Of a stretch of 6,775 nucleotides of DNA, positions 477 through 6,775 are shown one piece after another. The notes beneath the pieces were generated by a model. The model saw only the letters and a program-made list of their open reading frames with translations. It did not search any database and was not told the origin of the DNA. The stretch is from assembly GCA_036381125.1 (NCBI GenBank), contig DASVDK010000180.1, forward strand, positions 1 to 6,775, written 5' to 3'. Source of the stretch: DASVDK01 sp036381125 [NCBI: Thermodesulfobacteriota bacterium]. GTDB taxonomy: Bacteria > DASVDK01. The stretch's first letter is position 1; each line of letters begins with the position of its first letter. A program made the position numbers and the translations under genes.

Positions 477-1058
477 GTGGCGAGCCACGTCATCGTCGAT
501 GGCTACAACGTCATCCGGCAACTGCCGGCGCTGGCCGACCGCGAGCGGTGGAGCCTCGAGGCGGGACGGACGGCCCTCATCGACCGGCTGGCGCGCTACC
601 GCCGGGCCACCGGCCACCGCCTGACCGTCGTCTTCGACGGCGTCGAGGCGGGTTGGCACGAGGAGCAGCGGACGCGGGAGCGCGGCGTCGACGTCGTTTA
701 CACCGCCCGCGGCACGCGCGCGGACGAGACGATCGTCCGGATCGCGCGGGACGCCTCGCGAGGGGCCGTGGTCGTCGTCACCGCCGACCGCGAGGTCGCC
801 CGCCGCGTCGAGCGGGGCGGCGGGGCGGTCGTGTCGCCCGCGGCCTTCGAGGCGCGCCTCGACCGGACACGCGACGCCGGCCATGCCGGCCGTCCGCCGG
901 CAGAGGCGGGTGCGCCGGCCCCGGCGGACGCCCCCGACCCTGCCGAGGGGCGCGACGACGACCTCGAGGACGCCGGCCCGAGGCCCGGCAAGCGGGGCAA
1001 TCCGCGCAAGGCGCCGAAGGCCGAGCGCCGGGCGGCCCGCCGGATGCGGACGCTGTGA
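477..1058 (+). CDS. NYN-domain (YacP-like) putative ribonuclease
   Basis: The 193-residue product opens with VIVDGYNVI, the hallmark of YacP/NYN proteins, a PIN-like nuclease fold. Four acidic residues sit where the fold binds metal: D8 (VDGYN), D54 (VVFDG), D83 (TRADETI) and D104 (VVTADREVA). The domain ends near residue 130. After it come ~30 residues rich in Pro, Ala and Asp/Glu, then a basic tail (residues 171-193, KRGNPRKAPK followed by many Arg) that could bind RNA. YacP relatives are thought to act in RNA processing or decay; no substrate can be named here. The GTG start at 477 is chosen because the family's first strand begins directly after it and a purine-rich site, GGGAAGG, lies at 464-470. 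The end overlaps anmK by 4 nt (GTGA), which suggests translational coupling. The domain call is firm; the cellular role is unknown. Confidence 0.88.
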   Translation: MASHVIVDGYNVIRQLPALADRERWSLEAGRTALIDRLARYRRATGHRLTVVFDGVEAGWHEEQRTRERGVDVVYTARGTRADETIVRIARDASRGAVVVVTADREVARRVERGGGAVVSPAAFEARLDRTRDAGHAGRPPAEAGAPAPADAPDPAEGRDDDLEDAGPRPGKRGNPRKAPKAERRAARRMRTL

Positions 1059-2269
1059 TCGCCGTCGGGCTCATGTCGGGCACCTCGGCCGACGGGATCG
1101 ACGCGGCCGTCGTCGACCTCCCGCCCGCCGGGACCCCGGGGGCGGGCCGGCTCCTCGCGCTCACCCACCACCCCTACCCCGCGGGCGTCTCCGCCCGCGT
1201 CCTCGCGGCGGGCGAGGGGCGCGCGACGACGGCGGAGATCTGCCACCTCCACGTCTACCTCGCGGAGCTCTTCGCCGAGGCCGCGCTCGCCGCCATCGCG
1301 CGGGCGGGGCTCGCGCCGGACGACGTCGCGGTCATCGGCTCGCACGGGCAGACGGTGTACCACGCGCCGGAGCCGCGCGAGGAGCCGTCGCTCGGCTCAC
1401 GCCCCGTCCGGGTGCGCGCCACGCTGCAGCTCGGGCAGCCGCAGGTCATCGCCGAGCGGACGGGCGTGACGACGGTGGCCGACTTCCGGCCGCGCGACCT
1501 CGCGGCCGGCGGCCAGGGGGCGCCGCTCGCCACCTACGCGCACGCGCTCCTCTTCGGCCGCCCCGACGCCGCCGTCGCCGTGCAGAACCTCGGCGGGATC
1601 GCCAACGTCACCTTCGTCCCGGCCGGCGCCGGACCCGACCGGGTCCTCGCCTTCGACACCGGGCCCGCCAACATGGTCATCGACGGCCTCGTCCGGCTCG
1701 CGACCGGCGGCCGGGAGACGTACGATCGCGACGGCACCCGCGCGGCGCGCGGCCGCGTCCACGCCGGGCTCCTCGAGGCGCTGCTCGAGGAGCCCTACTT
1801 CGCGCGGCGGCCCCCCAAGTCGACCGGCCGGGAGCGGTTCGGCGAGCCGTACCTCGCGGCCGTCCGGTCGCGCGGCGCGGCGCTCGGCCTCGCCGACGAC
1901 GACCTGGTCGCCACCGCCACGGCGCTCACCGCCTGGTCGGTCGCCCGGGCGTACCGGGACTTCCTGCCGCAGGCGCCCGGCCGGGTCCTCCTCTGCGGCG
2001 GCGGCGCCCGTAACCCCACCCTGGCGCGGATGATCGCGGAAGCGGCCGCCGAGACGTTCCCGGGCGCCCCGCCCGTCGTGGAGGCGACCGACGCGGCCGG
2101 CGTGCCGGCCGAGGCGGTGGAGGCCGTGGCGTTCGCCGTCCTCGCCCGCGAGACGCTCGCGGGCCTGCCGGCCGGGCTTCCGCAGGTCACCGGCGCCGCG
2201 CGGCCGACGGTGCTCGGGGTCGTCGCGCCCGGTCGGCGCGCCGCCGATCTCTTCAGGGAGAGCCGTTGA
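1055..2269 (+). CDS. anmK: Anhydro-N-acetylmuramic acid kinase
   Basis: AnmK opens and phosphorylates 1,6-anhydro-MurNAc with ATP, giving MurNAc-6-phosphate in the cytoplasm during peptidoglycan recycling. The 404-residue product has the family motifs in order: GLMSGTSADGID (5-16, phosphate-binding loop), SHGQT (96-100), ADFRPRDLAAGGQGAPL (142-158), NLGGIAN (178-184), FDTGPAN (200-206; D201 lies in the motif that carries the catalytic Asp of known AnmK enzymes), PKSTGRERF (254-262), CGGGARN (314-320) and EAVEAVAFA (353-361). It is somewhat longer than the roughly 370 residues of the E. coli enzyme, partly through an insertion near 104-120. The GTG at 1055 is the start: it overlaps the upstream stop as GTGA and puts the first strand (IAVGLMSG) at the N-terminus as usual. 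The frame is open further upstream to 548, but that part is out-of-frame reading of the NYN gene. It overlaps the SIS gene by 1 nt. Confidence 0.96.
   Translation: MIAVGLMSGTSADGIDAAVVDLPPAGTPGAGRLLALTHHPYPAGVSARVLAAGEGRATTAEICHLHVYLAELFAEAALAAIARAGLAPDDVAVIGSHGQTVYHAPEPREEPSLGSRPVRVRATLQLGQPQVIAERTGVTTVADFRPRDLAAGGQGAPLATYAHALLFGRPDAAVAVQNLGGIANVTFVPAGAGPDRVLAFDTGPANMVIDGLVRLATGGRETYDRDGTRAARGRVHAGLLEALLEEPYFARRPPKSTGRERFGEPYLAAVRSRGAALGLADDDLVATATALTAWSVARAYRDFLPQAPGRVLLCGGGARNPTLARMIAEAAAETFPGAPPVVEATDAAGVPAEAVEAVAFAVLARETLAGLPAGLPQVTGAARPTVLGVVAPGRRAADLFRESR
2255..2260 (+). promoter_or_regulatory. Ribosome binding site for the SIS-domain gene
   Basis: AGGGAG lies inside the end of anmK, 8 nt before ATG at 2269. 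This spacing favours that ATG over the in-frame TTG at 2266 and supports coupled translation across the TGATG stop/start junction. Confidence 0.6.
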
Positions 2270-3006
2270 TGCCCACGTACTACGAGGTCGTTCGCGACCT
2301 CCTCGCCCGCGCGGAAACCACCCAGGGGACGACCCTCGACGCCGCCGCGGAGGCCGGCGCCGCCGCGATCGCGGCAGGCCGCCTCCTGCACGTGTTCGGC
2401 AGCGGGCACTCGGCCTCCGTCGCGGCCGAGGCGTTCCACCGGGCGGGCGGCCTCGTCCCGGTGAACGCCATCCTCGAGCCCTTCCTCTCCCCCTTCGCCC
2501 CGCCCAGGCAGGTCTCGGCCATGGAGCGCCTCCCCGGCCTCGCGGCCACGCTCCTCGACGCGAACCGGGTCGAGCGAGGCGACCTCCTCCTCGTCGCCTC
2601 GAACTCCGGCATCAACGCCCTCCCGGTCGAGATGGCCATCGAGGGCAAGGCGCGCGGCCTCACGGTGGTGGCCGTCACCTCGGTCGCCCACTCGCGGGCC
2701 GAGGCGCCGCGGCACGCTTCCGGCAAGCGGCTCTTCGAGCTCGCCGACCACGTGCTCGACAACGGCGGCGCGCCCGGCGACGTCGCCGTGCCGGTGCCGG
2801 GCGGTCCCGAGGGGGCGCGCATGGGCCCGACCTCCGGCGTCGTCGGCGCCTTCCTCGTGAACGCCTGGGTGGTGCGGATCGCCGAGCGCCTGGCGGCGCG
2901 CGGCATCCGGCCGCCGGTCTACGTCAGCGCGAACGTCGCGGGGGGCGACGCGCACAACCGCGAGGCGGAGGCGCCTTACCGCGGCCGCATCCGCCTGCTG
3001 TCCTGA
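2269..3006 (+). CDS. UPF0309/COG4821-type SIS-domain phosphosugar protein
   Basis: The 245-residue product is a single-SIS-domain protein of the UPF0309 (COG4821) type. It shows HVFGSGHSASVAAEAFHRAGG (41-61), whose GSGHS loop (44-48) and SNSG (111-114) are the phosphosugar-binding elements of the SIS fold. Other family-typical parts are ILEP (68-71), HSRAE...SGKRLFELADHVLDN (141-165), GPTSGVVGAF (186-195) and the C-terminal SANVAGGDAHN (220-230). It lacks the motifs I would expect in a true MurQ (GTSGRLGVLDASE-like) and is shorter than the usual ~300 residues. The gene sits between anmK and nagA, where a MurNAc-6-phosphate etherase would be expected. From memory, the Streptomyces relative NagS has been reported to dehydrate GlcNAc-6-phosphate; I cannot verify this here. 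The ATG at 2269 is chosen from its RBS and its 1-nt overlap with the anmK stop. Family: confident. Reaction: open. Confidence 0.9.
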   Translation: MPTYYEVVRDLLARAETTQGTTLDAAAEAGAAAIAAGRLLHVFGSGHSASVAAEAFHRAGGLVPVNAILEPFLSPFAPPRQVSAMERLPGLAATLLDANRVERGDLLLVASNSGINALPVEMAIEGKARGLTVVAVTSVAHSRAEAPRHASGKRLFELADHVLDNGGAPGDVAVPVPGGPEGARMGPTSGVVGAFLVNAWVVRIAERLAARGIRPPVYVSANVAGGDAHNREAEAPYRGRIRLLS

Positions 3007-3019
3007 CGGCGGGGGCGCG

Positions 3020-4249
3020 ATGGGGGACCGCCGCCTCCTCGTCGCCGGCCGGCTCCTCACCCCCGACGGGGTCGTCGAAGGGGGCGCCTGCGTCGAGGTC
3101 GAGGACGGGTACGTCGCGCGACTCGGCGTGCGCGCCGGCATCGAGGCGGCGCCCGGCATGCCGGTGGACGACTTCGGCGAGGAGGCCTGGCTCGCGCCCG
3201 GCTACGTCGACCTCCAGGTCAACGGCGGCGGCGGCTCCGACCTCATGGCCGGCGCCGGGGCGCTCGCGGTGGCCGGCCGCGCCCACCTCGCCCGCGGCGT
3301 CACCGCCTGGTGCCCGACGGTCATCACCGCGCCGCGCGACGCCCTCCTGCGAGCGCTCGACGACCTCTCCCGCGACCTCGAGCGGGCCGACCCGGCGACC
3401 CTCCCGGCCTGCCTCGGCCTCCACGTGGAGGGGCCGTTCATCGCCCACGGCGCCCGCGGCGTGCACGACCCCGGCGCCCTGCGCGACCCCGACCTCGCCG
3501 AGGTGGACGCCTGGCAGGCGGCCGCGCGGGGCCGCGTCCGGCTCGTGACGCTCGCGCCGGAGCGGCGCGACGCGCTCGCCGCCGTGCGCGGCCTCGTCTC
3601 GCACGGCATCGCCGTCTCGATCGGCCACACCGAGGCGACGGCCGAGCAGGTCCGCGCGGCGGCCGACGCCGGCGCGCGCCTCGTGACGCACACGTTCAAC
3701 GGCATGCGGGGGCTCCACCACCGGGAGGTCGGGCCGGTCGGGATGGCGCTCCTCGACGAGCGCCTCCACCCCGCGATCATCCCCGACGGCCTGCACGTGG
3801 GGGCCGACGCGCTGCGCCTCTTCCACCGGCTCGCCGGCTCCCGCCACCGTTCCGGCCGCGGCTTCCTCGTCACCGATGCGGCAAGCCCCGCGGGGCTGCC
3901 GGCCGGCGCGACCGGGACCTTCACGATCGGAGGCCGGCCGGTCGCCTACGCGGCGGGCCGGGTCACCGACGAGGCGGGCCGGCTGGCGGGCAGCGCCCTC
4001 ACCATGGACGCCGCGGCCGCCACGTACGCGCGTCTGGCCGGCGCGTCACCCGAGTCCGCCCTCCGGATGGCGACGGAGCGGCCGGCGCGGGCCCTCGAGG
4101 CCGGGCTCGCGGCCGGACCCGGCGCCGCCGCCTCCCCCCTCGCGTCCGCCGGCCGCCTCGTGGTCGGCGGTCCGGCCGACCTCGTCGCCGTCGGCCCCGA
4201 CCTCGCGCTGCTGGCCGTCTACCGCCTCGGCCGGCGCGTCGGCGTCTGA
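3020..4249 (+). CDS. nagA: N-acetylglucosamine-6-phosphate deacetylase
   Basis: NagA hydrolyses GlcNAc-6-phosphate to glucosamine-6-phosphate and acetate, the entry of recycled or scavenged GlcNAc into central amino-sugar metabolism. The 409-residue product is an amidohydrolase: a short N-terminal beta segment, then a TIM barrel from about residue 58 with metal ligands E137 (GLHVEGPFI), H203 (IGHTEA) and H224 (THTFNGM), and the catalytic D286 (VTDAASPAG). Likely substrate contacts are H149, R235 and H259 (PDGLHV). After PGYVDL the sequence is Q66-V-N68 rather than the HxH of most amidohydrolases, as in the single-metal E. coli-type enzyme. The C-terminal GGPADLVAV strand (383-391) is also typical. 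It starts at ATG 3020, 13 nt after the SIS gene, with a G-rich site (GGGGGCG) just upstream. It is the last gene of the plus-strand block. Confidence 0.95.
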   Translation: MGDRRLLVAGRLLTPDGVVEGGACVEVEDGYVARLGVRAGIEAAPGMPVDDFGEEAWLAPGYVDLQVNGGGGSDLMAGAGALAVAGRAHLARGVTAWCPTVITAPRDALLRALDDLSRDLERADPATLPACLGLHVEGPFIAHGARGVHDPGALRDPDLAEVDAWQAAARGRVRLVTLAPERRDALAAVRGLVSHGIAVSIGHTEATAEQVRAAADAGARLVTHTFNGMRGLHHREVGPVGMALLDERLHPAIIPDGLHVGADALRLFHRLAGSRHRSGRGFLVTDAASPAGLPAGATGTFTIGGRPVAYAAGRVTDEAGRLAGSALTMDAAAATYARLAGASPESALRMATERPARALEAGLAAGPGAAASPLASAGRLVVGGPADLVAVGPDLALLAVYRLGRRVGV

Positions 4250-5643: not shown

Positions 5644-5988
5644 CTAGCGCTCGATGTAGACGACCACCTCGCCCGCCTCGACCGCCACGCGAAGGGGGTC
5701 GAGGCCGGCGCCGAGGGGGGGACCGGCGACGCAGGCGCCGGTGTCCGGCTCGTAGAGGGCGCCGTGGGTCGGGCAGACGAGGTAGCGGCACTCGCGGTCG
5801 AAGAACTCGTTCTCGAACCAGTCGAGCGACACGGGAATGTGCGCGCACTCGTTCACGAACGCGCGGATCGTGCCGTGGTAGTTGAGGACGAAGCCGCCTC
5901 GCCGGCGGCCTCCCGCCTCCCAGGAAAACTTCGCGGTCGCGCCGTGCGGGAGGTCGGCCGCGTTGACGACCGGGATCCGGAGCGTCAT
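5644..5988 (-). CDS. Rieske [2Fe-2S] domain protein (ferredoxin-type)
   Basis: The 114-residue product is a stand-alone Rieske domain. The cluster ligands are C48 and H50 (NECAH) and C72 and H75 (VCPTHG), a CxH...CxxH pair 21 residues apart, followed by LYEPDTGACVAGPP (78-91), typical of small soluble Rieske ferredoxins. No signal peptide or membrane helix is seen, so it is probably cytoplasmic and carries electrons for an unknown partner. The ATG at 5988 overlaps the stop of the upstream nagZ-type gene as ATGA and has GAGG 7 nt before it; the frame is open further upstream, but that stretch lies inside the hexosaminidase gene and encodes Arg/Ala-rich nonsense. No oxygenase or nitrite reductase gene is in view, so NirD or a dioxygenase component cannot be supported. 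The domain is firm; the role is unknown. Confidence 0.93.
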   Translation of the reverse strand: MTLRIPVVNAADLPHGATAKFSWEAGGRRRGGFVLNYHGTIRAFVNECAHIPVSLDWFENEFFDRECRYLVCPTHGALYEPDTGACVAGPPLGAGLDPLRVAVEAGEVVVYIER

Positions 5989-6775
5989 CCGCGCGCCTCG
6001 GTCGGATCGAGGCCGCGGGTCGCCAGGCGCGGCGCCGCGGCCCCGGCGCGGGCGAGGACCTCGGCCGCGAGCGCCGCGTGCGCCTCGCAGCCGACCACCC
6101 CGAGGCGCTCCGGGTCGGGCGCCACGACCTGCGGGTCGTCGGCCGGCGCGTATCGCGACGCGAGGCGGGCGATGCGCGCGAGCGACGCCTCGACGCGCGC
6201 GGCCGACACCCTCCCGCTCGCCATCGCCGCACGGACCGCGTCGACGGCCCGCCGCTGCCGCTCGGCGTCGTGGCAGACCAGCAGGAGGTCGCACCCCGCC
6301 TCGACGGCCATCACCACCGCCTCCTCCCAGCCGAAACGGTCCGCGATGGCGGCCATCTCGAGGTCGTCGGTGGCGACGACGCCGTCGAAGCCGAGCCGGC
6401 GCCGCAGGATCCCCTCCACGATGGCGGGCGACAGGGTGGCAGGCCGGTCGGGGTCGAGCGCCGGGTACACGACGTGCGCGGTCAGGACCATCGGCACGCC
6501 GGCGGCGACGGCGGCGGCGAAGGGGGCGATCTCGACCGCCTCGAGCCGCGCGCGGTCGTGGGAGACGACGGGCAGGGCGTGGTGGCGGTCCTCCGCCGTG
6601 TCGCCGTGGCCCGGGAAGTGCTTCGCGCAGGCCGCCACGCCGCCCGCCTCGAGGCCGCGCGCGAACGCGAGCCCGAGCCGCACGACGGCCTCCGGGTCGC
6701 GGCCGAAGCTGCGCCGCGCGATCACCGGGTTGGCCGGGTTGGTGAGGACGTCCAGGACCGGCGCGAAGTCGACCG
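5985..6775 (-). CDS. nagZ: Beta-N-acetylhexosaminidase, glycoside hydrolase family 3 (NagZ-type), N-terminus outside window
   Basis: NagZ removes GlcNAc from GlcNAc-1,6-anhydroMurNAc muropeptides, feeding AnmK and NagA. The visible 262 residues begin with VDFAPVLDVLTNPANPVIARRSFG, the family's core barrel segment, so the GTG at 6725 is internal. Then come KHFPGHGDT (51-59) with the D62-R63-H64 pair on the flexible loop (the Asp-His dyad used as acid/base in NagZ enzymes; the middle residue is more often Ser), LTAHVVYPALDP (97-108), and GFDGVVATDDLEM (128-140) with the likely nucleophile D136. The C-terminal part has AGCDLLLVCHD (159-169), then about 95 residues of mostly helical, Ala/Arg-rich sequence. 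Whether it is cytoplasmic or exported cannot be judged without the N-terminus. The 4-nt overlap with the Rieske gene suggests coupled translation. A general beta-hexosaminidase of the family remains possible. Confidence 0.93.
   Translation of the reverse strand, partial: VDFAPVLDVLTNPANPVIARRSFGRDPEAVVRLGLAFARGLEAGGVAACAKHFPGHGDTAEDRHHALPVVSHDRARLEAVEIAPFAAAVAAGVPMVLTAHVVYPALDPDRPATLSPAIVEGILRRRLGFDGVVATDDLEMAAIADRFGWEEAVVMAVEAGCDLLLVCHDAERQRRAVDAVRAAMASGRVSAARVEASLARIARLASRYAPADDPQVVAPDPERLGVVGCEAHAALAAEVLARAGAAAPRLATRGLDPTEARG
5996..5999 (-). promoter_or_regulatory. Ribosome binding site of the Rieske gene
   Basis: On the minus strand GAGG stands 7 nt before ATG (5988-5986), inside the end of the hexosaminidase gene. 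It supports this start over longer in-frame alternatives. Confidence 0.5.

Follow-up and report, generated by a model that had tools for sequence, protein, structure and literature searches.

A UPF0309-family SIS protein encoded between anmK and a nagA-like gene: a candidate non-orthologous replacement for the MurQ etherase

The stretch of DNA analyzed here, 6,775 nucleotides of contig DASVDK010000180.1 from a Thermodesulfobacteriota bacterium (hereafter the window), carries between anmK and a nagA-like gene a gene for a SIS protein of the UPF0309 family. On comparative grounds we propose, with moderate confidence, that this SIS protein is an N-acetylmuramic acid 6-phosphate (MurNAc-6-P) etherase, a non-orthologous replacement for MurQ restricted to one clade of its family. 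The proposal is based on a conserved gene order, on the mutual exclusion of the SIS protein and MurQ in one phylum, on co-occurrence with anmK and a nagA-like gene in another, on conserved catalytic residues, and on the fold. The features of the window that bear on it are the following.

Positions 1055 to 2269, plus strand: anmK, anhydro-N-acetylmuramic acid kinase, with a GTG start (PF03702, 347 bits; NF007148, 452 bits, cut-off 387).
Positions 2267 to 2271, plus strand: junction of the anmK stop codon TGA (2267 to 2269) and the ATG of the SIS gene (2269 to 2271), read from the sequence.
Positions 2269 to 3006, plus strand: UPF0309-type SIS protein, the proposed MurNAc-6-P etherase (NF002805, 265 bits; alignments).
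Positions 3020 to 4249, plus strand: nagA-like gene of the N-acetylglucosamine-6-phosphate deacetylase family (TIGR00221, 199.3 bits, cut-off 225.65; Amidohydro_1, 34 bits).
Positions 5985 to 6773, minus strand: nagZ-like GH3 beta-N-acetylhexosaminidase gene, truncated at the window end (PF00933, 219 bits; PRK05337, 170 bits, cut-off 207).

The SIS gene and anmK have one nucleotide in common (position 2269), and the nagA-like gene begins 13 nucleotides past the SIS gene; because its TIGR00221 score lies below the cut-off, we call it NagA-like only. The SIS protein has 245 amino acids with one SIS_2 domain (PF13580, 136.6 bits, gathering threshold 27), matches the UPF0309 model NF002805 (PRK02947.1) over residues 3 to 244 (cut-off 135), and contains the motifs GSGHS, SNSG and SANVAGGDAHN. 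The MurQ equivalog model TIGR00274 (cut-off 302 bits) gave no match at E ≤ 0.01. In MurQ the first catalytic Glu (Glu83 in Escherichia coli) lies in the signature GAGTSGRLG..E, which is absent from the SIS protein; GSGHS stands there, with Arg58 at the ungapped equivalent of that Glu. A sequence-only reading of the window had already described a UPF0309 SIS protein lacking a MurQ signature between anmK and nagA, with a 1-nucleotide overlap, and these results agree with it. First scans of genome and viral contigs with the SIS protein as single query returned no relative. In named genomes there were at least 490 relatives, of which the best 80 were used; the top three of these 80 loci belong to Methylomirabilota, at 56 to 59% identity, and no Methylomirabilota SIS protein exceeds 60% identity to that of the window. 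Two relatives have solved structures, namely, 3cvj (BH3325), which is the best PDB sequence match (159 bits), and 9eol ("UPF0309 protein SCO4393," NagS).

Gene distribution was assessed in the genomes of relatives: 95 from Methylomirabilota, 290 from a second phylum, and 50 other genomes carrying UPF0309. With NF002805 matches over the cut-off counted as UPF0309, and with at least 190 bits required for AnmK and at least 184 bits for MurQ, UPF0309 was present in 26 of the 95 Methylomirabilota genomes, AnmK in 31, and MurQ in 51 (over its cut-off in 43). No genome among the 95 had both UPF0309 and MurQ, and 18 had neither. All 26 genomes with UPF0309 carried anmK, compared with 5 of the 69 others. 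The two genes were not merely found in the same genomes: UPF0309 lies directly 3′ of anmK in 25 of the 26 and at a contig end in the remaining one. Counted by match, 26 of 29 placed UPF0309 matches, one of them a fragment in G028, immediately follow anmK on its strand. The other three are that of G002, where each of the two genes stands at the end of its own contig, and the second copies in G007 and G010, which belong to another branch. Not included in the 29 are the second half of the gene that is split in G017 and a piece of 46 bits in G010, both above 40 bits. Since the pair recurs in 25 other genomes, and as a contig-end fragment in a 26th, the pairing seen in the window is not a matter of chance. 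An in-frame start overlaps the anmK stop codon, or lies within 10 nucleotides of it, in 20 of 26 loci, window included (19 of 26 if the start nearest the aligned N terminus is chosen). G025, where the overlap is 4 nucleotides, provides a nearly entire genome (a contig of 2,752,854 bases out of 2.8 Mb), and a profile search of it gave no MurQ match. Conversely, MurQ is found directly upstream of anmK in G093 and G094, both without UPF0309.

The wider neighborhoods are consistent with a place in cell wall turnover. Among 12 flanked UPF0309 loci, 11 have a PF07969-type amidohydrolase nearby, 11 a C26 peptidase, 10 an M20 peptidase and 6 nagZ; of 12 flanked MurQ loci, 9 include nagZ. UPF0309 and MurQ thus both sit among muropeptide recycling functions. 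A recurring cluster (G025, L136:3339-11544; also L181 to L190) comprises genes for an M20 peptidase, AnmK, UPF0309, a PF07969 amidohydrolase, a C26 peptidase, an M48-like protein and NagZ, and is a candidate cluster for muropeptide recycling, peptide part included. The sequence-only reading had suggested surveying UPF0309 neighbors for the order anmK-UPF0309-nagA; the first two genes keep that order, and nagA is lacking in 21 of the 26 Methylomirabilota genomes.

A second phylum was surveyed around G107, a Deltaproteobacteria-labelled genome whose UPF0309 protein (L032) groups with that of the window (support 99/91) and which has anmK and no MurQ match. UPF0309 was found in 36 of its 290 genomes, anmK in 65, and both in 32. 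Thus, anmK accompanies UPF0309 in 32 of 36 genomes, compared with 33 of the 254 without UPF0309 (Fisher odds ratio 53.6, p = 3e-20, kinship ignored), though the two were never on one contig. MurQ exceeded the cut-off in 1 of the 290, and there were seven weak matches of 90 to 96 bits; none of these eight genomes carries UPF0309 or anmK. The weak matches (G281, G316, G330, G361, G418, G428 and G434) are open reading frames of 509 to 534 amino acids and may, like GCKR, be proteins with two SIS domains. A NagA-like gene (E ≤ 1e-25) was present in 24 of the 32 anmK genomes with UPF0309 versus 1 of the 33 without. NagB (E ≤ 1e-15) was found in none of the 36 UPF0309 genomes and in 47 of the 254 others, a distribution that would suit a glucosamine 6-phosphate (GlcN-6-P) deaminase/isomerase standing in for NagB. 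We consider this role, which the sequence-only reading had listed, very unlikely. NagB was equally absent from all 42 second-phylum genomes with a NagA-like gene, with or without UPF0309; two UPF0309 relatives in Bacilli lie in a nagA-nagB-gntR-SIS run; the 21 Methylomirabilota members without NagA would have no supply of GlcN-6-P from it; and NagS bound N-acetylglucosamine 6-phosphate (GlcNAc-6-P) and not GlcN-6-P (PMC12680351).

The etherase proposal applies to a defined part of the family. In a tree of 132 proteins, 46 form one clade with support 100/98 (the window protein, 25 from Methylomirabilota and 20 from the second phylum); the 86 outside include NagS, 3cvj, the two Bacilli proteins and those of Clostridia operons with a BadF-type kinase. 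Clade membership is marked by H57 (46/46 versus 2/86 others), P75 (46/46 versus 0/85), E234 (46/46 versus 1/84), Y218 (44/46 versus 10/86) and I115 (43/46 versus 7/86, with Arg or Lys predominating in the others). MurQ was found in none of the 26 plus 36 clade genomes (the tree contains 45 of their 62 proteins), compared with 23 of 49 other UPF0309 genomes tested. Because the MurQ split follows the clade boundary, the two family halves likely differ in function, and we limit the claim to the clade of 46 since elsewhere the family coexists with MurQ. An etherase function for the whole family was considered and rejected: MurQ occurs in 14 of 19 non-Methylomirabilota UPF0309 genomes with AnmK above 200 bits, and in some of the 14 anmK is beside or near MurQ. 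The sequence-only reading had put forward a non-orthologous MurNAc-6-P etherase anticorrelated with murQ. For the clade this idea is strengthened by the absence of MurQ from all 26 Methylomirabilota genomes with UPF0309 (as against 51 of 95 overall), by the conserved junction, and by the position of MurQ beside anmK in G093 and G094; for the family at large it fails, as MurQ is found in 23 of the 50 UPF0309 genomes tested outside Methylomirabilota.

The predicted structure of the SIS protein (mean predicted local distance difference test score, 96.3) is closest to NagS (Z score, 35.0; root mean square deviation, 1.7 over 243 residues) and 3cvj (Z score, 35). MurQ comes next (20.0, 19.8 and 19.3), tied with GmhA (19.2). 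A profile comparison with MurQ by hhalign (probability 94.9) is confined to the SIS core and pairs E86 with the second Glu of the MurQ motif EGAED, in an alignment gapped just before; this Glu we take to be Glu114 of E. coli MurQ, the C2 base. Glu70 was tried as the counterpart of the first catalytic Glu of MurQ, as hhalign suggested; all 26 members of the first clade have Glu or Asp there. It was dropped because 11 of 12 members of one second-phylum group have Ala. TAL-repeat chains in the clade-profile search of the PDB had no stretch passing alone and were taken as repeat artefacts. MurR/RpiR regulators, which contain SIS domains, are also among the fold matches, and the sequence-only reading had mentioned a regulator sensing amino-sugar phosphates. 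A phosphosugar-sensing regulator without catalysis is scarcely credible for a protein of 245 amino acids in which a SIS domain alone was matched and in which the essential residues of NagS are invariant throughout the clade.

NagS of Streptomyces coelicolor (SCO4393) dehydrates GlcNAc-6-P to 6-phospho-chromogen I; H53, R64, E94 and D179 are essential, and S91 and N228 are important (PMC12680351). By alignment, H53, R64, S91, E94, D179 and N228 correspond to H47, R58, S83, E86, D171 and N222 of the window protein, and the equivalents of the four essential residues are invariant across all 46 clade members. The clade protein could be a dehydratase of NagS type, as the sequence-only reading had considered, its product being deacetylated by the adjacent NagA-like enzyme. 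All NagS catalytic residues are kept, the window protein even retaining Ser91 (as S83), the SIS gene adjoins a nagA-like gene, and the NagS product is reportedly a substrate of NagA (PMC12680351). Nevertheless, we regard this as quite unlikely, and the idea has lost ground. Identity to NagS is about 38 to 40%, below the 58.7% of NagS orthologues, and three homologues that share 26 to 36% identity, from Clostridium, Paenibacillus and Acidothermus, showed negligible activity at best (PMC12680351). At the position of Ser91, 30 clade members have Gly, 14 have Arg and two, among them the window protein, have Ser; the S91A substitution lowers the kcat/Km of NagS 40-fold (PMC12680351). A dehydratase of this kind would also lack its NagA in 21 of the 26 Methylomirabilota genomes and would leave the tie to anmK and the exclusion of MurQ unexplained.

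The chemistry proposed for an etherase is as follows. MurQ acts on MurNAc-6-P by removal of the C2 proton followed by elimination at C3. NagS, for its part, is proposed to remove O3 of GlcNAc-6-P, forming a C2-C3 double bond (PMC12680351); because the two eliminations are alike, a NagS-like site turned to MurNAc-6-P would need mainly a changed leaving group. In the pathway that we envisage, AnmK would open and phosphorylate 1,6-anhydro-MurNAc to give MurNAc-6-P, and the SIS protein, whose translation is probably coupled to that of anmK on one transcript, would open the sugar ring, with Glu86 taking the C2 proton. The substrate itself, the elimination of D-lactate from C3, the probable addition of water to give GlcNAc-6-P, and the acid protonating the leaving lactate, for which the clade-specific H57 and E234 are candidates, are the parts that we infer. 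GlcNAc-6-P would then be deacetylated by the NagA-like enzyme. A variant to which we give little credence is an etherase with NagS-type chemistry whose end products are D-lactate and the 2,3-unsaturated sugar phosphate (6-phospho-chromogen I), with no water re-added, at least in the Methylomirabilota lacking NagA; muramic acid would then leave recycling by a route absent from the literature cited here.

Several observations weigh against the etherase proposal. The exclusion of MurQ was counted in relatives, and MurQ could be present in the window's own genome. In Methylomirabilota, the division between UPF0309 and MurQ runs largely between two blocks of the genome listing, so that the exclusion may represent one or a few evolutionary events, and G008 and G009 have anmK with neither enzyme, which means that anmK can do without both or that these drafts are incomplete. 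NagA exceeds 200 bits in only 5 of the 26 UPF0309 genomes there, the other 21 having no match above 40 bits and hence no usual next enzyme for the proposed product; none of the 51 MurQ genomes has NagA above 40 bits either, so its absence does not separate the two groups. The second-phylum co-occurrence counts take no account of descent, a NagA-like gene is present in only 3 of the 8 genomes nearest L032, and the UPF0309 neighbors in that phylum (20 loci, L191 to L210) are conserved yet, judged by eye, are not recycling genes. Outside the clade, the coexistence with MurQ described above counts in the same direction, as does the occurrence of UPF0309 in archaea, which lack peptidoglycan. At the level of the protein, the window's Ser at the NagS Ser91 position is that of the dehydratase, and the first catalytic Glu of MurQ is without a sure counterpart in the clade. 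The clade profile searched against the PDB finds no MurQ at E ≤ 0.1 but does find GmhA (5i01, E = 0.001) and MurR, and with the MurQ profile as query GmhA (9e-12) ranks well ahead of 3cvj (4.5e-4); in sequence, the clade shows no particular closeness to MurQ.

The clade-profile result favors a different SIS enzyme, an isomerase or epimerase of a sugar phosphate or amino-sugar phosphate (a 2-epimerase or a GmhA-like enzyme, for instance) that merely resides in a recycling operon, with MurNAc-6-P processed by another route, such as MupP-AmgK-MurU. The fold tie of GmhA with MurQ, the deposition of 3cvj as a putative phosphoheptose isomerase, and the second-phylum gene's position next to LptD-like genes (by eye) are in line with this explanation, and our gene-content searches covered UPF0309, anmK, MurQ, NagA and NagB, with AmgK, MurU and MupP outside their scope. 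We nonetheless judge it rather unlikely, as it predicts neither the exclusion of MurQ nor the link to nagA-like genes, and the Pseudomonas-type route needs no SIS protein (PMC5371407).

Some further observations concern the surroundings of these genes. The window has a G+C content of 77.5%, and its AnmK is at most 54% identical to relatives. The remaining gene calls are as follows.

Plus strand, cut at the window edge: lemA.
Positions 477 to 1058, plus strand: YacP/NYN gene.
Minus strand: GDSL lipase gene.
Minus strand: Rieske protein gene.

The anmK start overlaps the end of the YacP/NYN gene by 4 nucleotides (GTGA, 1055 to 1058), and anmK translation may be coupled also to this upstream NYN-domain gene. 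In G008 and G009, the slot after anmK that UPF0309 takes elsewhere holds a gene (L127:4001-4651 and L128:2938-3636) that by eye resembles one for a LysM-type lipoprotein; the G009 gene gave no Pfam match. The second-phylum loci have, by eye, an LptD-like or in some cases fadJ-like gene upstream and mostly surE-like and M23-type lipoprotein genes downstream. Crenarchaeal UPF0309 genes were seen at L060 (G127), L075 (G134), L062 and L081, and G127 and G134 have AnmK-family matches of 260 and 263 bits with no MurQ match. In Bacillota operons (L001, L013, L016, L020, L021, L025, L027-L029, L031, L038, L041, L048, L055 and L061), two divergent UPF0309 paralogues flank a BadF-type kinase gene, the second paralogue falling in a very divergent branch. 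Genes resembling "neutral ceramidase N-terminal domain" proteins are repeatedly found next to or not far from UPF0309 genes in the other half of the family (L004, L005, L015, L017, L026, L043, L046, L058, L063, L065, L066, L076, L077, L079, L080, L082, L084 and L086).

No earlier report of UPF0309 as a MurNAc-6-P etherase was found in the literature searched, which was largely without subscription journals. In the main text of the NagS paper, the word MurNAc occurs only in a pathway legend and in titles of references, and we found no test of MurNAc-6-P (PMC12680351); S. coelicolor has its own MurQ, SCO4307 (PMC5061867). MurQ is the sole MurNAc-6-P etherase named in the literature cited here, where bacteria without MurQ are assigned to the AmgK-MurU route (PMC5371407), and for mycobacteria a 2026 preprint invokes an etherase "other than MurQ" with no gene given (PMC13041923). 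If the clade does replace MurQ, it would be a candidate type for such an enzyme. Recycling maps would change for at least two phyla, the NC10 group among them, and a family whose sole characterized member found makes a toxic sugar would gain an ordinary housekeeping role.

Among known systems, NagS shares with the window protein its family, its fold, and the six essential or important residues; it differs in being encoded beside dmdR1, whereas the window gene lies beside anmK and a nagA-like gene, and the clade differs in its specific H57, P75, I115 and E234 and in having Gly or Arg at the Ser91 position in 44 of 46 members. The uncharacterized BH3325 (3cvj) is likewise a UPF0309 protein but belongs to another part of the family tree. 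MupP-AmgK-MurU is the other described fate of the MurNAc-6-P made by AnmK when MurQ is missing and employs a phosphatase, a kinase and a uridylyltransferase, with no SIS protein (PMC5371407). MurQ (4lzj, 4s12 and 1nri) belongs to a separate family, with its signature absent from the window protein, no TIGR00274 match between them, and a profile overlap limited to the SIS core, where an alignment gapped just before this position pairs the second Glu of EGAED with E86. It resembles the window protein in the SIS fold (Z scores of 19 to 20), in being found, within genomes of one phylum, also beside anmK or near nagZ, and in the overall reaction that we propose.

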